Positions 8,495 to 23,306 of a stretch of 23,306 nt of DNA are shown one piece after another. Each line of letters begins with the position of its first letter. Position 1 is the first letter of the stretch. The position numbers and the translations under genes were made by a program. Source of the stretch: a virus; IMG/VR virus record IMGVR_UViG_3300032285_000602, positions 1 to 23,306 of that record; one strand, written 5' to 3'. Under the pieces are notes generated by a model. That model did not search any database and was not told the DNA's origin. It saw only the letters and a list, made by a program, of their open reading frames with translations.

Positions 8495-9622
8495 TTAGTT
8501 GGTGTAAACCTTGCAGATCGCTTGATCTGTGATTACGCCAAGACCCCAGATTGCGTACCAAGCAAGAGCATGCTCACGACCGAAGTCAAGAACACCACCA
8601 TCACGAAGTTCAACTGGAAGTGAGATTGCGTGACCAAATGCGTTGTCACCAATCATGATTGCTTCATAAACTGAAGCACCATTACCTGTTGCTGAGGTTA
8701 GATAACCTTTTTCTGCTGTGTAATCTGCAGACTCTGGGTTACCACCTTGTCCTGGGGCTGTGTTAGCCTTAACAGGAGCAGAGTATTGGTTTGCTGGAAC
8801 TGCAACATCAGATGAAGTTGTGTAAGAAGCGTTTTGCGCTAACTTCTTAACCTGAGTTGTCTCAATGAATACTACGTCGTACAAACGACCGATTTCACCA
8901 AGCATGAAGTTACCAGGAGCGGCGTACTTCGTTACTTCAATGAACTCTGGGTTTGAACGGATATCACGAGACTGTGATGGGTGAACGAACATTACGTAAG
9001 TCTCACCTAAACGAGGGATGTTCTTACCAGCAAGAGTAAGAGCAGCATCCTTAACTGCACCAGTTGATAACTTGTAGTTACCATCTAGGTCAGCGAATGC
9101 AGTTGCCTTTTCACCTTCGTTGTACCAGTCGTTGATACCTTGTAGGCCTGTGCGGTCATAGCCGAATACGGCTGATGTAGCAGCAGACAAGGTGTTACGT
9201 GCTTGTACATCTAGGTACTGTGCCATGTGGCGACCTAGCAGACGTGAGGCTGATGCCATTACGTCATCGAAAGATGCGTTCAATAGAAGTTCAGATACTG
9301 CTACTGCGTAGCCGTGCTCTGCAACTGTGATCGCAATTTGCTCTGCTGTAAGAGCGTTAGTTGTCATACGAACACCTTCAGTTAGAGGTGTTGGATCGAT
9401 ACCAAAGTTCTTGTAACGAAGGAAGTTCACACGAAGACCAGGTGCTACACCTAGTTCAGTCTTCTTAACTGCGAATTGTTCGAAACGTAGAATTGGCATT
9501 GCTTGGAACAAGATTTCCTTGCTCCAGATTGTTTGAATTGCTTGGTTCAGGCTGCTATTAGCGCCTGAGTAAGCGGTTGGCGCAGTAGCGAGTTGCCCTG
9601 TACCTGTAATTGCACTTGCCAT
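8495..9622 (-). CDS. Major capsid protein, N4-gp56-like (HK97 fold)
   Basis: 375 residues, a normal size for the N4-gp56 family of HK97-fold capsid proteins. Features include an early helix (NQAIQTIWSKEILFQAMP), the PLTEGVRMT stretch followed by a strand and the AVSELLLNASFDDVM helix, a helix with GRHMAQYLDVQARNTL, and the P-domain block TYVMFVHPSQSRDIRSN.EF..V..Y followed by GEIGRLYDVVFIET. The C-terminus has the expected GHAISLP and a late hydrophobic strand. It forms the capsid shell. It follows the scaffold gene by 34 bases and is followed by a stem-loop. No prohead-protease gene is evident in the window; N4-type heads often mature without one, so this is not anomalous. Confidence 0.9.
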   Translation of the reverse strand: MASAITGTGQLATAPTAYSGANSSLNQAIQTIWSKEILFQAMPILRFEQFAVKKTELGVAPGLRVNFLRYKNFGIDPTPLTEGVRMTTNALTAEQIAITVAEHGYAVAVSELLLNASFDDVMASASRLLGRHMAQYLDVQARNTLSAATSAVFGYDRTGLQGINDWYNEGEKATAFADLDGNYKLSTGAVKDAALTLAGKNIPRLGETYVMFVHPSQSRDIRSNPEFIEVTKYAAPGNFMLGEIGRLYDVVFIETTQVKKLAQNASYTTSSDVAVPANQYSAPVKANTAPGQGGNPESADYTAEKGYLTSATGNGASVYEAIMIGDNAFGHAISLPVELRDGGVLDFGREHALAWYAIWGLGVITDQAICKVYTN

Positions 9623-9656: not shown

Positions 9657-10415
9657 TTAACCGAACAGTCCCTGACCACGATTGCTTGCAGCAGTGCCAA
9701 GTAGTTTGGCTCTTTGTTTCGCATAGTCCGCCAATGACATATCCCTGATCGAATCAGGAGAGTACGATTTTTGTTCCGAGTCATTATCGAGGGGTCCTGC
9801 GGCAGGATTAGTAATTCTAGTTCCTGCCATTTGTTGTCTTGCGCTTTGCATTGCTTGTTGAGCAGATGACAAAATTCGAGCAGATTTTTCTTTCAACATT
9901 GCGATGCTCTGCTCTACTTCATCTGCATTGTTGCCATCAATTAAGTCAATCAATTCAGGAACAATATTGTCCCGCTCTTGCTCAACTCTTTGTTGACGGT
10001 AAGTCATAACTTCTTGGAACTTGCGTTCTTGTTCCAACAGAGCAAAAGCACGTTCTCTTTCAAGACGTTCCTGCTCAAGTTGAGCCTGAAATTCTTGCTC
10101 CTTCTTTGCGAGGAGTTCTTTCAAAGGAAGTTCTTCTTCTTCCCTTGCCTTTTGCTTTGCTGCTTTTTCTGCTTCTTTAGCAGCACGACGTTGTTCACGC
10201 TCTTCTTGTTTAGCAAGAAGATCTTCTGCTAATTTCTTTTGTAGTGCAAGTTCTTCTTTCATCTTTTCAAGTTGTGGATATAACTTTGCCTTTTCTTGCT
10301 CACGAGCCTTTGCAAGGTCGTCTGCAGTAAAACCAGGCACTGTTACCTCTTCACTTGCGATTGGAGCAACAACATCAGATGCTGTTACTTCTGTGTTCTC
10401 TACTACATTTTCCAT
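9657..10415 (-). CDS. Capsid scaffold protein
   Basis: 252 residues from the ATG at 10415; a GTG at 10424 would add three residues, and neither has a convincing Shine-Dalgarno. Residues about 35-160 form a very long charged coiled coil rich in E, K, Q and A (e.g. KEAEKAAKQKAREEEELP), as in phage scaffolds that assemble inside the procapsid. The C-terminal segment (DMSLADYAKQRAKLLG, ending NRGQGLFG) matches the capsid-binding tail typical of actinophage scaffolds. The position between portal and major capsid genes is the classical scaffold slot. It is expected to leave or be degraded during maturation. Role confident from composition plus context. Confidence 0.85.
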   Translation of the reverse strand: MENVVENTEVTASDVVAPIASEEVTVPGFTADDLAKAREQEKAKLYPQLEKMKEELALQKKLAEDLLAKQEEREQRRAAKEAEKAAKQKAREEEELPLKELLAKKEQEFQAQLEQERLERERAFALLEQERKFQEVMTYRQQRVEQERDNIVPELIDLIDGNNADEVEQSIAMLKEKSARILSSAQQAMQSARQQMAGTRITNPAAGPLDNDSEQKSYSPDSIRDMSLADYAKQRAKLLGTAASNRGQGLFG

Positions 10416-10479
10416 AGTATTCACTTACTTTCTTGGGTCGTTGTCCGAATGCCTTTCGGCGTATCACATTGGGTTATTA

Positions 10480-10547: not shown

Positions 10548-12284
10548 TTAATCCTTGTCTACTGTTCTCCTTTGTGGAATTTTTGTTCCATAGGCATCAG
10601 TGACAAGTTTGTTGCGAATCTCTGCTTCAGCCTCTACCTCAATACCTTTAGTCTCTTGGCTGGCTTGATTTTCTGGGTTGTTCTGATCTTGAGGACCCAT
10701 CATTCCATCACCCATAACATCGCCATCTCCCAATTGCATTGGTTGCATTGGTATAGCGCTATTTCCATCAGGGCCAGGCATCATGCCTGTCATATCCATA
10801 ATCTGCTTTTGTATTTGAATCTTAACAAGTTGTAAAGCGCCATCAGCCTCAGCATCAGCCATAAGTTCTTGACGAATTTCTTGCAACTTCTCTTCTGGGA
10901 ACTCTTCGCCAAGTTGACGCAATGCGCCTTCTTTTGACTCCAATCCCATTCCCAACTTGGTCTGGATCTCGTTGAGCACGATCAATTTATCAAGTGGGAG
11001 AGGTTGTGGGAACTGTGCGTAGTTAATGTAAGTAATTGGATCATTAGGATCAAGTTGTGGATATTGACCCTCTTTGATTGGTCCATCTTGATCTGGGTTA
11101 TACGTAAATGTCTCAGGCTCTTTGATTGCAAGAGTTTTCATTACTAATTCATTAATCTTCTCTAAGCCTTTTCCATACTGTGCAACCTTTTGTGAATAAC
11201 GATTCATTAATGGTTGATACTGAATAGAAAGTGCTACACCAGAAGTGTTTGAAATTGGCTGAACTTGTCCAAGCGCAGTTTCTGGAATGTTCATGATTTC
11301 GTGCATTGAACGTTTTAGAAGTTCTAGATACTTCAAGGCTCCGTCAATACCTTGAGCACCACCTTCTAGGTTAAAGACTTGGGCGTCTTTTGGAAGACCG
11401 CCCCAAACCTTCTTTGCGCCCTTTTCTAAGTTAGAGGCTTTAGCACCCACGATCACCGTTACTGGTGATGCGTGGTAGTTAATGATGTCTGCAACATCAG
11501 TGCTAATTTCGTTATATGCACGGTTGATAGTGATGATGTCGTGTGCGTCAGAGAGACCCCACGGCGATCCTGAAACAGGAACATTAGGAATGTGAACTAC
11601 TGGGATTACGCCAAGTGGATTTGGACGTGAATCGATTAGTTCATCGTTTACATATTCTTCAATAGTGTCATCAGTAAGAATTTCAGTGTAAGTAAATACT
11701 TGTCGAGTACCTTCTAGAGATGTTCCCCAGAAACGATACTTTTGTTTAAAACGTAATAAACGTGTGCGATCATGTGGGTGAAACTCAGGGAAACAAAACG
11801 ATGAGTTCATTGGAAGAATGCGGACACGACCTGGGTGTAATAAACCAGCAGAGTCTGTCCAAGGCTCTTCGTATGCAACCTTTACAAAACAATCTCCAGT
11901 AATTCCGCCTTGTTGTCCCATTTCAAGTAGGACACGCATTTTGTCATTGTCTACTTCCCAAACACGTTCCAAACGGTCAGGAACAATGGCCTCAGTTGCT
12001 TTCGGTGAACGAAAATGAACACCACGGCCAAAAGTAAAACGAGAAAGATAATCATTAAATGCACGATAATAGTTAACAGCGATTTGCATTTCGCCTTGTT
12101 CACGGCGGTACCCCCAGTGATGACCAAGATACATTGCCCAGTTTAATGAGTAACGGTTTAGGCGAGGACCGTGGACTTCAAATTCTTCATCAGCAAGTTC
12201 TACTAATCCCAATGGGGAAATAGAGATGGTTAAGTCAGATGATGCCGCTCTATATGACGGCGGACTAAAGTCCAAAAATGACAT
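10548..12284 (-). CDS. Portal protein, SPP1 gp6-like
   Basis: 578 residues. The region NPLGVIPVVHIPNVP followed by GLSDAHDIITINRAYNEISTDVADII matches the core and long helix of Phage_prot_Gp6 portals; the N-terminal half has the wing-like alpha/beta part, including GQQGGITGDCFVKVAYEEP. The C-terminal 90 residues are Met-, Gln- and Asp-rich, low complexity and probably flexible (MDMTGMMPGPDGN, then repeated MQP and GDG). It forms the dodecameric channel through which the terminase packages DNA and to which the tail attaches. Its ATG overlaps the stop of the 84-residue gene (TAATG). Length is slightly above typical because of the acidic C-terminal extension. Confidence 0.92.
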   Translation of the reverse strand: MSFLDFSPPSYRAASSDLTISISPLGLVELADEEFEVHGPRLNRYSLNWAMYLGHHWGYRREQGEMQIAVNYYRAFNDYLSRFTFGRGVHFRSPKATEAIVPDRLERVWEVDNDKMRVLLEMGQQGGITGDCFVKVAYEEPWTDSAGLLHPGRVRILPMNSSFCFPEFHPHDRTRLLRFKQKYRFWGTSLEGTRQVFTYTEILTDDTIEEYVNDELIDSRPNPLGVIPVVHIPNVPVSGSPWGLSDAHDIITINRAYNEISTDVADIINYHASPVTVIVGAKASNLEKGAKKVWGGLPKDAQVFNLEGGAQGIDGALKYLELLKRSMHEIMNIPETALGQVQPISNTSGVALSIQYQPLMNRYSQKVAQYGKGLEKINELVMKTLAIKEPETFTYNPDQDGPIKEGQYPQLDPNDPITYINYAQFPQPLPLDKLIVLNEIQTKLGMGLESKEGALRQLGEEFPEEKLQEIRQELMADAEADGALQLVKIQIQKQIMDMTGMMPGPDGNSAIPMQPMQLGDGDVMGDGMMGPQDQNNPENQASQETKGIEVEAEAEIRNKLVTDAYGTKIPQRRTVDKD

Positions 12285-13082: not shown

Positions 13083-14663
13083 TTAGAAAAAAGGATTACT
13101 AGATGCAACAACTTCTGGCATTACTAAGTCTTGGGTTAAAGAACAGGCTATAGATAAAGAATCTACAAAGTCATCGTGGGCATAGTTTTCATCAGGAGCC
13201 GCTACAAGGAAATTTGGGCCTTTATATTGAACTTCTGCATCCACCATTTGTTGATAGAACCGTTTCCATGTTCTTAGGCGTCTAGTTTTTGCATGGGCAG
13301 GCCAAGCAATCATTTTTCTTTGAATTAAGGCTTGTAAATGTTTCCATCGTTTAGATTGTTCAGAAGGGCTAGATGTTAATGACATAACCTCTGCTCTTGG
13401 TAATAATAACTTTAAGCGTTGGGCTACAGCATCTCCAACACCGTTAGCGTCAACACCAACAGCAAGAACATCGTAGTTACTTAAGAAGTTAACAATTTGA
13501 TAATACTGTTCTTCCCAGTCATCCCCTTGCATCTCTAACCAGTTTAAAATCCGATGATCAAAATAACCAAACTCGTCAGGACGATCCCAATCAACCCAAA
13601 CAACAGTAACAACTGTACTGTCAGTTTTACGAGCAGGGTCAATGCCGACAACAACTGGGGTTTTGTGCCATACCTTAACAAGTTCTTGAGAAGTGTCACC
13701 CAAGTCATCCATAATCGAAGAAGTAACAAACATACCCCTTTCTAATAACCACTTACAGTTGTAAGACATTTGGAACTCATCAGACTCTTCACCAATACGT
13801 AACATTTCTTTACGAATGAATTTTTCATAATTTGTATTGAATTTTGCAACATCTTTCCAGTCCCATTGGAAATGATTTTGACGATTACCTCTAGTAGTTT
13901 GACGTCTACGGTTTAATTGAATTGAACGATAAAAGTTGTTTTTACTTGTTGTTGGCGTTCCAGTTTTTACCATTGTTCCAGCGTAGTAAGCCAACATAGG
14001 AGAAATAGATTTAGACACAACAAAGTCGTCAGCCTCTTGACATTCATCAATAACAATTAAATGGAAAGACTTAGATTCAATTTTTGCACGAGGGTTAGCG
14101 GTCATCATGGTTATTGTTGAACCAGATTTCTTTAATTTAATCTGGCGAGTTACACCGCCAACACGAGCCGTAGCATCATCGATTTCAGGATCTCCCATGA
14201 TGTCAAGAGCCCTCTCGGAAGTTAAGCGAGTTACAGCACGACCAAATAATGTTTCGGCCTGAGACTCAGTAGGAGCAAATAATCCAACCCATAAACCATC
14301 TTTAAATTTACCTAATAAGTCAGGGTACAACTTTGCAAGACGTGGAAGAAGAACCATCAGTGTGGCTACTGTATCTGCAACAGTTTCAGACTTTCCTGAC
14401 TGACGTGAAGCAAGGGCTGTAATTTCTTCACCATCATTAATAATTACTGATTCAATGATACGACGGGCTAATGGCTTTTGATAAGGGTGTAAATCATGAC
14501 CAACAAGGACTTTTAAGAAGTCCATAATTTTGTCTATTAACTTATCAACAAATTGCTGAGAAAGTTCATCTAATGGTTCGTCAACAGGTTCGTCTGTTGG
14601 TTTTTCTTCGTTCTGATAAAACTCGGGATTAATCTCCTCGAATTTCTCATCATCAAATTCCAT
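13083..14663 (-). CDS. terL: Terminase large subunit (packaging ATPase/nuclease)
   Basis: 526 residues with AAGGA four bases before the ATG. The ATPase domain has Walker A ASRQSGKSET (85-94), Walker B LIVIDECQEAD (202-212) with catalytic E207, and a coupling-motif-like GTPTTSKN (235-242). The nuclease domain has the RNase-H-type acidic residues in GIDPARKTDST (D342), GVDANGVGD (D405) and HDDFVDSL (D497, D498, D501). It pumps DNA through the portal and cuts the concatemer. The first 35 residues are an acidic, disordered extension (DEPVDEPLDEL). No clear small-terminase gene is adjacent; candidates are the small genes at 14671-17389. Confident assignment. Confidence 0.95.
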   Translation of the reverse strand: MEFDDEKFEEINPEFYQNEEKPTDEPVDEPLDELSQQFVDKLIDKIMDFLKVLVGHDLHPYQKPLARRIIESVIINDGEEITALASRQSGKSETVADTVATLMVLLPRLAKLYPDLLGKFKDGLWVGLFAPTESQAETLFGRAVTRLTSERALDIMGDPEIDDATARVGGVTRQIKLKKSGSTITMMTANPRAKIESKSFHLIVIDECQEADDFVVSKSISPMLAYYAGTMVKTGTPTTSKNNFYRSIQLNRRRQTTRGNRQNHFQWDWKDVAKFNTNYEKFIRKEMLRIGEESDEFQMSYNCKWLLERGMFVTSSIMDDLGDTSQELVKVWHKTPVVVGIDPARKTDSTVVTVVWVDWDRPDEFGYFDHRILNWLEMQGDDWEEQYYQIVNFLSNYDVLAVGVDANGVGDAVAQRLKLLLPRAEVMSLTSSPSEQSKRWKHLQALIQRKMIAWPAHAKTRRLRTWKRFYQQMVDAEVQYKGPNFLVAAPDENYAHDDFVDSLSIACSLTQDLVMPEVVASSNPFF

Positions 14664-18436: not shown

Positions 18437-18598
18437 CTATTCTCTATTACGCAGTGGATACGTGACAACCCATGCAACGATAGTGCCAATAATTGCGTAT
18501 CCAACCACAGTTTTTGCACTTCCGTCTAACACTACCCATGCAATAAACATGCCAAGTAGAGTCCACAGTTGATCAACCATGTCCTTTAGTAACTTCAT
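18437..18598 (-). CDS. Two-helix membrane miniprotein, holin candidate
   Basis: 53 residues, read directly from the minus strand; no longer frame covers it. Start ATG 18598 overlaps the stop of the secreted-protein gene by four bases (ATGA), and AAGGGA lies six bases upstream inside that gene, so it is strongly coupled. Residues about 10-25 (LWTLLGMFIAWVV) and 31-47 (VVGYAIIGTIVAWVVTY) are membrane helices joined by DGSAK; the ends are basic (MKLLK start, PLRNRE end). Size, two helices and charged ends fit a class II holin or pinholin. No other function is suggested. Confidence 0.6.
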   Translation of the reverse strand: MKLLKDMVDQLWTLLGMFIAWVVLDGSAKTVVGYAIIGTIVAWVVTYPLRNRE

Positions 18599-20124
18599 AC
18601 ATCTTCCCTTCGTCTTGCTGCATTGTTGTTTCCGCCACTACTTCCTCCAGTAGTTGAACTACCTGTAGTTGTTGCAGCAGCAACTGATGCTGCGTTTATT
18701 GCTGCACCTCCAGCAATTACCGTTGCAACTACAGCCTTTGTTGATTGTTCACGTTCTTCAGTACTCATATCTGCACCAAGACTTCCTAATGCAAGTAAAG
18801 CCTTTGCAGGATCTGTAAATATTGCGCCTACTAAATCAGCGGGATTATTAACCAATGTAAGAGCATCAGCAACTTCTGCGGTAATGATAACTTCATTTCC
18901 ATGAGCATCGGTTCTAACTTGAACTGGAGTTTCTGGTGGCAAATCAGCATAAGTAAGACCTGCATCTTTTATGTCTTCTGCAGTAACTGCAATACCATTA
19001 GCAAGTGCATCAGCAATAAGTGCCTCAGCAATTACTTCTTTTTCAGCATCCGTTAACTTACCATCTGCCATAGCATCACTTACTACGCTTTCAACAGAAG
19101 GAGGTTCAGGTGCAACTTCAGGAATTGGTTCAGGCTCTGGAGCAGGCGCAGGAGCGGGTGCTTCTTCTGGCGCAGGAGCAGGCGCAGGTTCTGGGTCTTC
19201 TGGCTGCACAACTTCAGGCGCTGGATCAGGCTCTACCACAGGAGGAAGCGGTTCAATTGCAGGAGCGGGTTCGACTGGCGCTGGTGGAGTTGGAGGAACA
19301 GGTAGAGGTGCTGGAGCCGTCGATGTATCAGTCTGGGATGTTTGAGTATCCACAATTGCGGAACCACTATCAACAGTCGATGTTGAAGTATCAACAGTAA
19401 CAGTTGGTGTTTCAACAACTACTGTAGGTGTTTCAACGACTGTTGGTGTAAGAACAACAGGTGTTTCTACACGTACAACACCGTATTGTTCAAGAGTAAC
19501 TACATTTCCATTATTTAATGTAACACCAGTTCTTGTTTGACCTGTATATGTAGGTCCAGTTATAGCATAAGAAATTGCAACAGTTCCATTTGCATTTATA
19601 GCAGCAGTAATAATGATGTTAGTTGCTTCGGCAGCATTTTGCATCCAATATGGTCGTGCTGCTAAATCTACTTGAAAACCACCATCACTAGAACTAATAA
19701 CAAAGTGCTCATCATCATGTTCCCATGGTCTGACACATGGAGCAGCACAAGTTCTTGGATAAGCAACCCAGTCCATACTGTATAAAGATATAGATGGTGT
19801 TTGTGGATATTGCCAATAAGTTCCATCTGGAGCACCAAATGTAATTACAGAGTTAGTAGTTGCATACACTGAATCAAATTGACGGCCATCAAATGTTACC
19901 GTTGCAGTAATTGGCACTGAATAGGAAACGTCATCTCCACCACAAGTTTCAAGTACTGTAACAGTTGGAGTATCTCCAGGTGCAGTAGGTGTAGCGGCAG
20001 CAGCAACTGCCGCTGCTTGAGCGGTGTTTACACAAGTTGCATAGGCTGGTGTTGGAATTAGTAATGGTAGTAAAGCAAAAGATGATGCTACAGATAGTGC
20101 TGCGAATATACGCAGTTTTCTCAA
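18595..20124 (-). CDS. Secreted/surface protein with signal peptide and proline-rich stalk
   Basis: 509 residues. The start is TTG 20124, supported by GAGGGG five bases upstream and by the signal peptide that begins there. 1-29 is a classical Sec signal (basic MRKLR, hydrophobic core, AYA cleavage site before T30). 30-217 is a beta-rich globular domain with six cysteines, containing FDGRQFDSVYATTNSVITFG. 225-245 repeats PTV units. 270-342 is a Pro/Ala/Glu-rich stalk (e.g. EPAPAPAPEE). 343-460 is helical, with DGKLTDAEKEVI. Residues 464-486 are moderately hydrophobic and a RRRED end could act as a stop-transfer anchor. No peptidoglycan hydrolase motif is visible. It probably acts in the host envelope during lysis or superinfection control; unknown family. 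It overlaps the two-helix gene. Confidence 0.7.
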   Translation of the reverse strand: MRKLRIFAALSVASSFALLPLLIPTPAYATCVNTAQAAAVAAAATPTAPGDTPTVTVLETCGGDDVSYSVPITATVTFDGRQFDSVYATTNSVITFGAPDGTYWQYPQTPSISLYSMDWVAYPRTCAAPCVRPWEHDDEHFVISSSDGGFQVDLAARPYWMQNAAEATNIIITAAINANGTVAISYAITGPTYTGQTRTGVTLNNGNVVTLEQYGVVRVETPVVLTPTVVETPTVVVETPTVTVDTSTSTVDSGSAIVDTQTSQTDTSTAPAPLPVPPTPPAPVEPAPAIEPLPPVVEPDPAPEVVQPEDPEPAPAPAPEEAPAPAPAPEPEPIPEVAPEPPSVESVVSDAMADGKLTDAEKEVIAEALIADALANGIAVTAEDIKDAGLTYADLPPETPVQVRTDAHGNEVIITAEVADALTLVNNPADLVGAIFTDPAKALLALGSLGADMSTEEREQSTKAVVATVIAGGAAINAASVAAATTTGSSTTGGSSGGNNNAARRREDV

Positions 20125-20761: not shown

Positions 20762-20954
20762 AATTAAACACGCCTTCTGGATCAAAAACTTCAATTGCTT
20801 TTAAAAATAATTTGTTACCAGTATCTCTTGCATGATGTCCACAAAAATACAACTCACCACTTATAAGTGTGGCACGAACTTTTGCTTGGGCTTGGCACCT
20901 GTCACATCGGTCCTCAATAGTTAAAGGACGTTTTTTATTAACCGCAACAGACAT
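20751..20954 (-). CDS. DUF7455-like zinc-binding protein
   Basis: 67 residues. DRCDRCQAQAKVRATLISGE followed by LYFCGHHARDTGNKL gives Cys-x2-Cys and Cys-x-x-His-His; this is the pattern of the short zinc-binding DUF7455 proteins that are widespread in actinobacteria and their phages. The N-terminus is basic. It overlaps its upstream neighbour by one base (TAATG) and its downstream one by 11. It supports an actinobacterial host. Likely binds one zinc; the partner and role are unknown. Confidence 0.7.
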   Translation of the reverse strand: MSVAVNKKRPLTIEDRCDRCQAQAKVRATLISGELYFCGHHARDTGNKLFLKAIEVFDPEGVFNYGR

Positions 20955-21124
20955 TAAAAAAATCCTGGTTTAGGTAAAGGTATGCTTGCATTTGGAACCA
21001 TTTTATTTTCAACATTTGACATAGGAAGAGGGGCTTTTCCATTAAACTCTTCTTTAATAGGCATAGCACCCATCTTAGTCATGCTTGATTGATCAAACTG
21101 CGAAGAAGATAGGTTTGCATTCAT
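20954..21124 (-). CDS. Hypothetical 56-residue protein
   Basis: Read directly from the minus strand: ATG 21124, TAA 20954-20956. The residues include SSSQFDQSSMTKMGAMP near the start and a Pro/Lys-rich end (PLPKPGFF). Its TAA overlaps the ATG of the DUF7455-like gene (TAATG), and GAGG lies thirteen bases before its own start. The tight coupling to conserved genes is the main support; it is likely the first gene of the minus-strand run that starts at the divergent spacer 21125-21183. No family recognised. Confidence 0.5.
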   Translation of the reverse strand: MNANLSSSQFDQSSMTKMGAMPIKEEFNGKAPLPMSNVENKMVPNASIPLPKPGFF

Positions 21125-21874: not shown

Positions 21875-22333
21875 TTAAGCCTGTTTAGCGTCGATTCCCT
21901 CATTACGGAACATTTTAACATTCTTCTTCTTATCATCGTAGGCTTTCTTAACTTTAAAGTTTGGAAGTACTTCTTCTTTAAGAAGGGACTTTTTTACCTT
22001 CTTGTCTTTACGGTCATCCCCAACTTCTCGCATATACAAAGCATCGTAAGGAATTCCATGCTCATTTAACCAAGTTTTAGTGTCTTTACGATAATGAGCA
22101 GAACGGGCAGTTAGGATTACTACATCCCGCCCTTTATCTTTTTCTCTACGAACTTTTTCCACCATCTCTGGGATAGCGTCAGCGCCAGCAGCATGACTAC
22201 GGAAGCCTTGATGATCTTTTTTGTGATTCGCATTTGGGTCATTTGTATCCGCCAATGTTCCATCTAAATCAAAAACCACAGCCTTCTTGCTTCGTTTATT
22301 ACGCCCTGTTTCAAAGGCATGGTTTTTACTCAT
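21875..22333 (-). CDS. HAD-family phosphatase, polynucleotide kinase 3'-phosphatase-like
   Basis: 152 residues. Motif I is FDLDGTLADT (21-30; nucleophile D22, acid D24). Motif II is VVILTARS (71-78; T75). The block LYMREVGDDRKDKKVK (99-114) and the ending AYDDKKKNVKMFRNEGIDAKQA (131-152, acidic D133, D134) match the phosphatase half of T4 Pnkp (PseT) closely, including the 'L-x-M-R-x-x-G-D-x-R-x-D-x-x-V-K' signature. It would remove 3'-phosphates from broken nucleic acid ends, or act on nucleotides. The kinase half is absent, so it is a stand-alone phosphatase. The N-terminus has a 17-residue basic extension (NKRSKK). Family confident, substrate by homology. Confidence 0.85.
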   Translation of the reverse strand: MSKNHAFETGRNKRSKKAVVFDLDGTLADTNDPNANHKKDHQGFRSHAAGADAIPEMVEKVRREKDKGRDVVILTARSAHYRKDTKTWLNEHGIPYDALYMREVGDDRKDKKVKKSLLKEEVLPNFKVKKAYDDKKKNVKMFRNEGIDAKQA

Positions 22334-22343
22334 GAGTTAAGTA

Positions 22344-22607
22344 TCAGTCTTGTTGGATTCCCATACGTTCTAAATACTTCTCTTTTTCTGACATCAAGTA
22401 AGTCTCAATGCGTTTGTGCTGAATTTCAGCCTGTTCTTCTGTTGCTTTAATTTGTTCTGGTGTCATTTCGCCCTGTAAATCCTTAAATGTAAGTATGGCT
22501 AAATCTAAGTCAGTTTTAGCCAATGCTGCTTTTAATTGTGCTTGTTGCCAAAGAAACTCAGCATGTTCTTCTTTACGTTGTTTTTTCTTATCTTGTGTTT
22601 TAGACAT
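22344..22607 (-). CDS. Hypothetical coiled-coil protein
   Basis: 87 residues, with AGGGTGG four bases before the ATG. It is nearly all helical and charged: KKKQRKEEHAEFLWQQAQLK at the start, LAILTFKDLQ in the middle, then a coil through EQIKATEEQAEIQHKRIE to the end. No cysteine or membrane segment. It is followed by the phosphatase gene after 10 bases, so co-transcription is likely. Not recognised; a small structural or scaffolding protein is possible. Confidence 0.55.
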   Translation of the reverse strand: MSKTQDKKKQRKEEHAEFLWQQAQLKAALAKTDLDLAILTFKDLQGEMTPEQIKATEEQAEIQHKRIETYLMSEKEKYLERMGIQQD

Positions 22608-22720: not shown

Positions 22721-23266
22721 TTACTTGTATTGCTCAATCTCTTGGTATGGCCCAGAGGTAAAGGCTGTGATCTTAGATGCTGCTTCCATTGCCTCTTGTG
22801 GAGTTGCACCAACCCACAAGGCACCTAAAGCATAAGGACCACCAGAACCAACTGTATAAAAACCTTCTTGGGTTCTAATTACAGATAGGTCTTGGTCAAT
22901 ATCAAACAATTCGCCCCCAACAGCCATGATGAATTGAAATCTCAAACCATCTTTAGATTTGTCATGATCCTCATTAAAGTCATATCCATTATCAGTTAAA
23001 CATTTACGCAAAGAAGGCATAGCCTTTGAAATCATAAAGTGATAAACATCTTTTGCATCTTTAGCAGTTAATTTTGGCGGATTCCAAATGTGTTGAGCAA
23101 TATCGCATGGTGAGACTTCACCAGCACCCGCAATTAAGAAATCGCCACGTTCTGCAATCTTCTTCATTTGCTCATGACGATATACACGTCCGTTATCATC
23201 TGTTACTTGGTTATCTGCAAGTAATACACAATGATCTTCGTACTGTACCCCAATGATTGTTGTCAT
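22721..23266 (-). CDS. HslV/proteasome-beta-like Ntn-hydrolase peptidase
   Basis: 181 residues with AAGGGG six bases before the ATG. It starts MTTIIGV, so removal of Met exposes Thr1, the nucleophile of HslV and proteasome beta subunits; the family pattern continues with D17 (LLADNQVT, as in HslV's GDGQAT), lysines KK at 34-35 aligning with K33 after a two-residue insertion, an AGAGEVSPC block, and GSGGPYALGALW (137-148), which matches HslV's GSGGPYA motif with the catalytic-loop serine. Length equals HslV. HslV forms a ring peptidase fed by the HslU ATPase; no HslU or proteasomal ATPase is encoded here. Without a propeptide it should self-activate by Met removal. It may process virion proteins or alter host proteolysis; the fold is likely, the role unknown. 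Confidence 0.82.
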   Translation of the reverse strand: MTTIIGVQYEDHCVLLADNQVTDDNGRVYRHEQMKKIAERGDFLIAGAGEVSPCDIAQHIWNPPKLTAKDAKDVYHFMISKAMPSLRKCLTDNGYDFNEDHDKSKDGLRFQFIMAVGGELFDIDQDLSVIRTQEGFYTVGSGGPYALGALWVGATPQEAMEAASKITAFTSGPYQEIEQYK

Positions 23267-23306
23267 CGAATTCCCCTTCAGTAGAAAGCCCCCCTAGGAT
23301 ACCAGA

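Follow-up and report, generated by a model that had tools for sequence, protein, structure and literature searches.

The window analysed here is a 23.3-kb virus fragment (positions 1 to 23,306 of the IMG/VR record IMGVR_UViG_3300032285_000602), and its element of interest is a gene for a proteasome-like threonine peptidase. The minus strand of positions 22721-23266 is a single open reading frame (ORF) of 181 codons, MTTIIGVQYEDHCVLLADNQVTDDNGRVYRHEQMKKIAERGDFLIAGAGEVSP...GFYTVGSGGPYALGALWVGATPQEAMEAASKITAFTSGPYQEIEQYK, and the plus strand of the same interval is full of stops. A first-pass annotation had reported an HslV/proteasome-like peptidase at these coordinates without naming a strand; the ORF fits them exactly, on the minus strand. 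The ORF matched PHROG 1040 ("peptidase HslV family") at 1.1e-29 and the Pfam family PF00227 (Proteasome) with 23.9 bits, slightly above the cut-off of 22.4. Once the initiator Met is removed, the N-terminus reads T-T-I. Catalytic residues are numbered from this first Thr (Thr1).

22721-23266, minus strand: proteasome-like threonine peptidase of 181 amino acids (aa), assigned to group I, in a lineage sister to the AAH family of proteasome homologues (translation; PHROG 1040)
23266-23264, minus strand: initiator Met codon of the peptidase
23263-23261, minus strand: Thr1 codon
23215-23213, minus strand: Asp17 codon (residue 18 of the ORF)
23161-23159, minus strand: codon of the Lys33 equivalent (residue 36, the second K of "KK")
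around 23122-23120, minus strand: oxyanion Gly region
22849-22838, minus strand: GSGG turn
23273-23279, minus strand: purine-rich ribosome-binding site gaagggg, with 6 bases between it and the peptidase ATG (sequence)

Relatives were gathered by scanning viral contigs. The first scan gave 140 confirmed relatives, and the second at least 538 matching contig stretches. Residue conservation was counted over the 140 translated relatives, and Thr1, Asp17 and the Lys33 equivalent were each kept in every one of them. Loss of Thr1 or Asp17 in close relatives, named beforehand as the observation that would count against a peptidase, was thus not seen. The equivalence to Lys33 of HslV was assigned to the second K of the "KK" pair by counting. 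The first-pass annotation had listed the whole pair and the string GSGGPYA as preserved as well, which holds for the second K, but not for the first (also A, R, T, V or S) or for the string. The latter reads GSGATYA, GSGAPIA or GAGTAYA in relatives, and only G140, G142 and A146 are invariant in this region. The ratio of nonsynonymous to synonymous substitutions (dN/dS) between the peptidase gene and its close relatives was 0.03-0.10, with divergence overwhelmingly synonymous; the gene is therefore a maintained coding gene and not a chance ORF. The element at 22721-23266 is a proteasome-fold N-terminal nucleophile (Ntn) peptidase whose catalytic set is intact, and as judged by these residues it is probably active as an enzyme.

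An AlphaFold model (AF2) of the peptidase, built from 52 aligned sequences, had a predicted local distance difference test score (pLDDT) of 93.8 and a predicted template modelling score (pTM) of 0.89. It showed the proteasome core with both helix pairs, with helix H2 at residues 74-92 and a strand at residues 174-180 as the last secondary-structure element, a feature defined in PMC8665760. The N-terminal Thr after Met, Asp17, Lys33, the oxyanion Gly and the beta-sandwich core all agree with the group I proteasome-like (Ntn) family. By Foldseek, the nearest solved structures were those of BPH (2.2e-11, TM 0.72), followed by HslV (8e-10). Profile matches to solved structures (hmmsearch) also had BPH (1e-8) ahead of HslV (2e-5). 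Against the collected families, profile E-values were 3e-29 for AAH, 5e-21 for PPH, 3e-12 for BPH, 2e-9 for HslV and 3e-4 for the 20S proteasome beta subunit. No significant profile match to Anbu was found, in a comparison with one putative Anbu sequence only.

In the tree, the freshwater peptidases formed one clade (97/98), which the copy from a cultured Planktophila phage joined at 96/91. A larger clade (94/90) united these with AAH and with other actinophage copies, from DSL-LC01, Microbacterium phage Pumpernickel and Arthrobacter phage Hum25. The branching order inside it had alternatives at p 0.50 in the approximately unbiased (AU) test. HslV and BPH formed a clade of their own (93/82), apart from the freshwater phage peptidases, and the 20S beta subunit was separate as well. 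Based on the trees and the profile E-values, the phage peptidase is assigned to group I, beside AAH, and not to HslV. Of the "HslV/proteasome-like" label, the proteasome-fold Ntn peptidase stands and HslV does not. The phylogenetic check proposed with that label thus set the protein apart from HslV and 20S beta; grouping with non-peptidase Ntn-hydrolases, which had also been named as counting against a peptidase, was examined and left the peptidase reading in place.

The phage peptidase falls within none of AAH, PPH, HslV and BPH. AAH has the closest profile, equal length and core and a sister-level position, but it forms its own 100/100 clade that excludes the phage peptidase, shares only 23-27% identity with it and resides for the most part on chromosomes and plasmids of bacteria. 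PPH (proteasome homologue of phages and hosts, e.g. of Salmonella phage SETP7) is likewise a phage-borne group I type, with the second-best profile and a similar C-terminal half, but has ~140 aa and lacks helix H2 (PMC8665760), whereas the window peptidase has 181 aa and H2. HslV (ClpQ) shares the fold, Thr1/Asp17/Lys33 and the GSGG turn, but not the clade. BPH (5ovs, 5ovt, 5ovu) is the top solved-structure match by both fold and profile and needs no unfoldase, but it falls in the other clade, is chromosomal and has a far more acidic pore loop. The copies of the Planktophila phages LanE43-AprF5 and E7 (OX376641, OX376640; here F5/E7), the first cultured phages of "Ca. Nanopelagicales", are 39% identical to the window peptidase over the full length. 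These phages encode WhiB, as the window's relatives do, but they have other terminase and portal families and a genome of ~39 kb.

The first profile scan of genome contigs used the phage-type profile and found no bacterial relative; the AAH profile was used thereafter. The phage-type search over 396 actinobacterial genomes matched two, one by the centre genome's own AAH and one by a partial match of 44 positions. On the Rhizobium tropici CIAT 899 plasmid pRtrCIAT899b (L095:2001-2519), an unannotated AAH copy is stopped after 38 codons, beside transposase genes. At the position of this interrupted AAH, a hypothetical protein is annotated on many other rhizobial plasmids.

An actinobacterial host, as presumed in the first-pass annotation, is well supported for the carrier phages. 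WhiB was present in all ten carrier phage records, and in the control set it matched Corynebacterium only. The terminase large subunit (TerL) of the window is 53% identical to that of Streptomyces phage BRock, and the major capsid protein is 61-63% identical to those of the BRock phage group. The GC content was 38-47%. The nearest named peptidase copies are those of Planktophila phages F5/E7 and of the predicted actinophage DSL-LC01 (31%).

The absence of a partner unfoldase from the window was correctly noted at first pass, but it concerns a 23.3-kb fragment, and the question was therefore taken to larger relatives. AAA_2 (the ClpX/HslU type) was above cut-off in none of the ten carrier records, among them the complete genome of Planktophila phage F5. 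A P-loop scan of 37.7 of the 38.9 kb of F5 revealed one helicase/RecA-like protein and no AAA+ unfoldase. A ClpX/HslU-type unfoldase is absent from these ten records. The hosts gave a similar picture, in line with the earlier statement that actinobacteria usually lack HslV: HslU was above cut-off in 1 of 396 actinobacterial (Actinomycetota) genomes, and other Clp-type AAA+ proteins of actinobacteria gave sub-threshold matches to the HslU model. Membership in HslV by way of a partner ATPase was rejected on these counts. In the sole positive genome, G166 (C56:8117-9420), two neighbouring reading frames each hold part of the HslU match, which may reflect a broken gene, a sequencing error or contamination.

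The window encodes a late module on the same strand as the peptidase.

22344-22607, minus strand: gene for an 87-aa protein downstream of the peptidase (neighbour clustering), kept within ~3 kb of it in 49 loci of window-type context
21875-22333, minus strand: HAD-type polynucleotide phosphatase/kinase-like protein (PHROG 415, 1.7e-33), transcribed in the peptidase direction
20954-21124, minus strand: 56-aa protein MNANLSSSQF..., with an N-terminal NLSxxQF tag
13083-14663, minus strand: TerL (PHROG 2, 4e-33), 8.1 kb downstream of the peptidase
10548-12284, minus strand: portal protein (PHROG 64, 5e-38)
9657-10424, minus strand: scaffold-like protein with coiled coil and many charged residues, encoded between the portal and capsid genes, matching BRock gp148 (sequence); no PHROG match and no protease signature
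8495-9622, minus strand: major capsid protein (PHROG 1357, 7e-63)

Neighbour clustering of 114 loci revealed two contexts. In context A, the window type, the genes run in one direction: a CHAP endolysin (PF05257), the peptidase, the 87-aa gene and, further on, TerL, portal, scaffold and capsid. The 95-kb relative G001 keeps this order. In context B, the Planktophila type, TerL is followed at some distance by the portal, then directly by the peptidase, a ~80-aa gene, a ~150-aa gene and a large protein (1711 aa in F5), and later by scaffold and capsid.

Presence of the gene was assessed in 68 loci chosen by the portal alone, regardless of the peptidase. The peptidase lay directly behind the portal in 61 of them. 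In the other seven it was either cleanly missing (two loci) or had another gene, of 86 aa, in its slot (five loci), and no replacement protease appeared. Scans that started from TerL covered 16 loci with sufficient flanking sequence, and in nine of these the peptidase was encoded 7-10 kb upstream of TerL, on the TerL strand; in several of the remaining loci it lay farther out, on contigs already known as carriers. When ten whole records were searched directly, six contained it. Streptomyces phage WRightOn has a homologous portal module in which the slot holds nothing but small genes and no peptidase, and in BRock, with a homologous capsid module, the gene was not found. The peptidase is thus a frequent but optional late-region gene in these phages.

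Three further genes of these phages are recorded here in their own right. The 86-aa protein behind the portal is basic (MPxQRKK...KEPVLVKIDFWAIAAKEVYDA) and stands in for both the peptidase and the small gene after it at the gene-less loci L308, L315, L316, L330 and L337. A gene for a 174-aa protein lies ~1.3-2.2 kb upstream of the peptidase in context A loci (L005, L007, L018 and others); it is found near one place in both orientations, as if moving or inverting. The window also encodes a 509-aa protein (18595-20124, minus strand) without a family match. Its relatives vary in length (median 758 aa); they open with a signal-like segment, and the body after it is rich in Thr and Ala.

In the window-type relatives, numerous small, mutually unrelated proteins begin with M(x)0-7 LSxx[QE][FL], typically NLSxxQF (L004:2074-2427, L013:3685-3975, L025:5205-5558, L052:1498-1833, L054:5551-5892 and others). 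The window itself holds one, at 20954-21124. This tag was counted 63 times in 547 kb of window-type loci, three times in 468 kb of Planktophila-type loci and not at all in the control loci, 533 kb in total and bacterial for the most part, with the BRock region included. A looser pattern retrieved 85 proteins in 20 groups, several of the small groups looking like chance. One further tagged protein is a GNAT (PF00583), one had a sub-threshold match to an Arr ADP-ribosyltransferase, and others resembled ParB-type folds by eye. Because the common N-terminus sits on unrelated bodies, it suggests a targeting tag, which perhaps serves the packaging of injected proteins. In Planktophila-type phages the peptidase occurs without this tag.

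We favour, at even confidence, a ring-forming, ATP-independent group I peptidase that acts late on unfolded proteins and belongs to an AAH-side lineage distinct from HslV. The initiator Met would be removed, exposing Thr1, and the subunits would assemble on their own into a closed single or double ring, by analogy with BPH and HslV. Such a chamber, with no dedicated AAA+ motor, would admit unstructured or partly unfolded chains. Produced late in infection, the peptidase may trim or remove surplus, misfolded or host proteins, at a modest benefit, the gene being kept by most but not all of these phages. An ATP-independent ring is plausible because BPH, whose solved fold is the nearest, forms a double ring that apparently functions without an unfoldase (PMC5777263; PMC8665760). 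Several observations weigh against this reading. In the phage lineage, the loop that follows the second helix has only mild acidity (mean net charge -1.6), less than that of BPH (EEEDD / ESQDDALE), so a BPH-like strongly acidic pore loop was rejected. Biochemical characterisation of AAH and PPH was not found in the literature searched (PMC8665760). Relatives in other phages adjoin nucleotide-metabolism, PhoH or lysis genes, and "late" may therefore not be general. Finally, both large (95-97-kb) relatives examined encode a CobS/MoxR-like AAA_5 ATPase with a VWA/CobT-like partner (L089:4251-6997, i.e. G001 84251-86997; L092:5242-8538, i.e. G002 45242-48538), 7-8.5 kb from the peptidase and on the opposite strand, and some motor protein is therefore present there.

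This AAA_5/VWA pair is an argument for a subunit that works with an AAA+ motor, either the phage's own or one of the host (ClpX, ClpC, ARC/Mpa, FtsH), and actinobacteria do have Clp-type AAA+ proteins other than HslU. We consider such a partnership unlikely. The complete Planktophila phage has no such motor, and HslU is missing from nearly all host-phylum genomes. As an HslU-like partner the AAA_5 protein was rejected, with a best HslU blastp E-value of 0.085 and AAA_2 below cut-off; the pair is encoded on the other strand and is of the MoxR type, which is not known to feed a peptidase. A co-occurring AAA+ partner or functional context was found for none of these homologue families in the 2021 survey (PMC8665760). 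An enzyme of host take-over or counter-defence, removing a specific host protein such as a transcription factor, a defence effector or a host proteasome component, is rather improbable. The gene is accessory and patchy yet strongly constrained, as expected of such genes, and its window-type neighbours include many small variable proteins, one a confirmed GNAT and others suggestive of ADP-ribosyltransferases. However, no host target or signal was identified, and the late position would put its action late for a take-over, except if the virion carried the protein.

Packaging leads to a related proposal, in which NLSxxQF proteins are packaged and injected as virion cargo and a proteasome-like ring from the shared late operon trims or licenses them. 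T4 gp21 acts likewise on Alt and internal proteins. We rate this as very improbable. A prohead protease, with a proteasome-fold enzyme in place of the usual S78/U9 protease cleaving scaffold or capsid proteins, was favoured at first from the portal slot, and the first-pass annotation had also thought of a stand-in for a missing prohead protease. The peptidase occupies this classical slot in about half of the loci examined, where it shares an operon with the scaffold and capsid genes, and the S78 prohead protease was absent in nine of ten carrier records. The idea lost ground with the portal scan, which was unbiased, and with the operons lacking the gene, and it now appears quite unlikely. A prohead protease should be present wherever the head module is; since the gene is missing in 7 of 68 equivalent modules without another protease, and from the related Streptomyces phages, it is an accessory gene and not an essential prohead protease. 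Furthermore, the scaffold is a separate gene, the capsid protein aligns with its Streptomyces phage homologue from residue 1 without an extra N-terminal domain, and in the window type over 8 kb separate the peptidase from portal and scaffold. A non-hydrolytic member, acting as a connectase-like ligase or as an inactive ring of structural use, is very unlikely: the S3/S4 two-helix insert that marks connectase is absent from the predicted secondary structure, and all catalytic residues are kept in the 140 relatives.

Phage proteasome homologues are an already known kind, since PPH and AAH were described in 2021, when Fuchs, Alva and Lupas reported 22 new proteasome homologues and named PPH "the first true viral member" (PMC8665760). 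Those of phages were described from sequence alone (PMC8665760), no characterised phage proteasome homologue was found in the literature searched, and the main text of the Planktophila phage paper does not mention the peptidase gene (PMC10202952). In the 2021 survey, AAH was present in many phages but in no actinobacteria-specific phage (PMC8665760). The window lineage occurs in actinophages; it and its setting are new, and they add to the known kind. A single viral collection yielded at least 538 matching contig stretches, which makes this a large separate lineage, carried by phages that infect the most abundant actinobacteria of fresh water. It includes a cultured phage-host pair, and its function is therefore directly testable. 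With no identifiable phage unfoldase, HslU-less hosts and gene-less sister phages for comparison, these phages offer a natural test of proteasome-type chambers that work without an ATPase.
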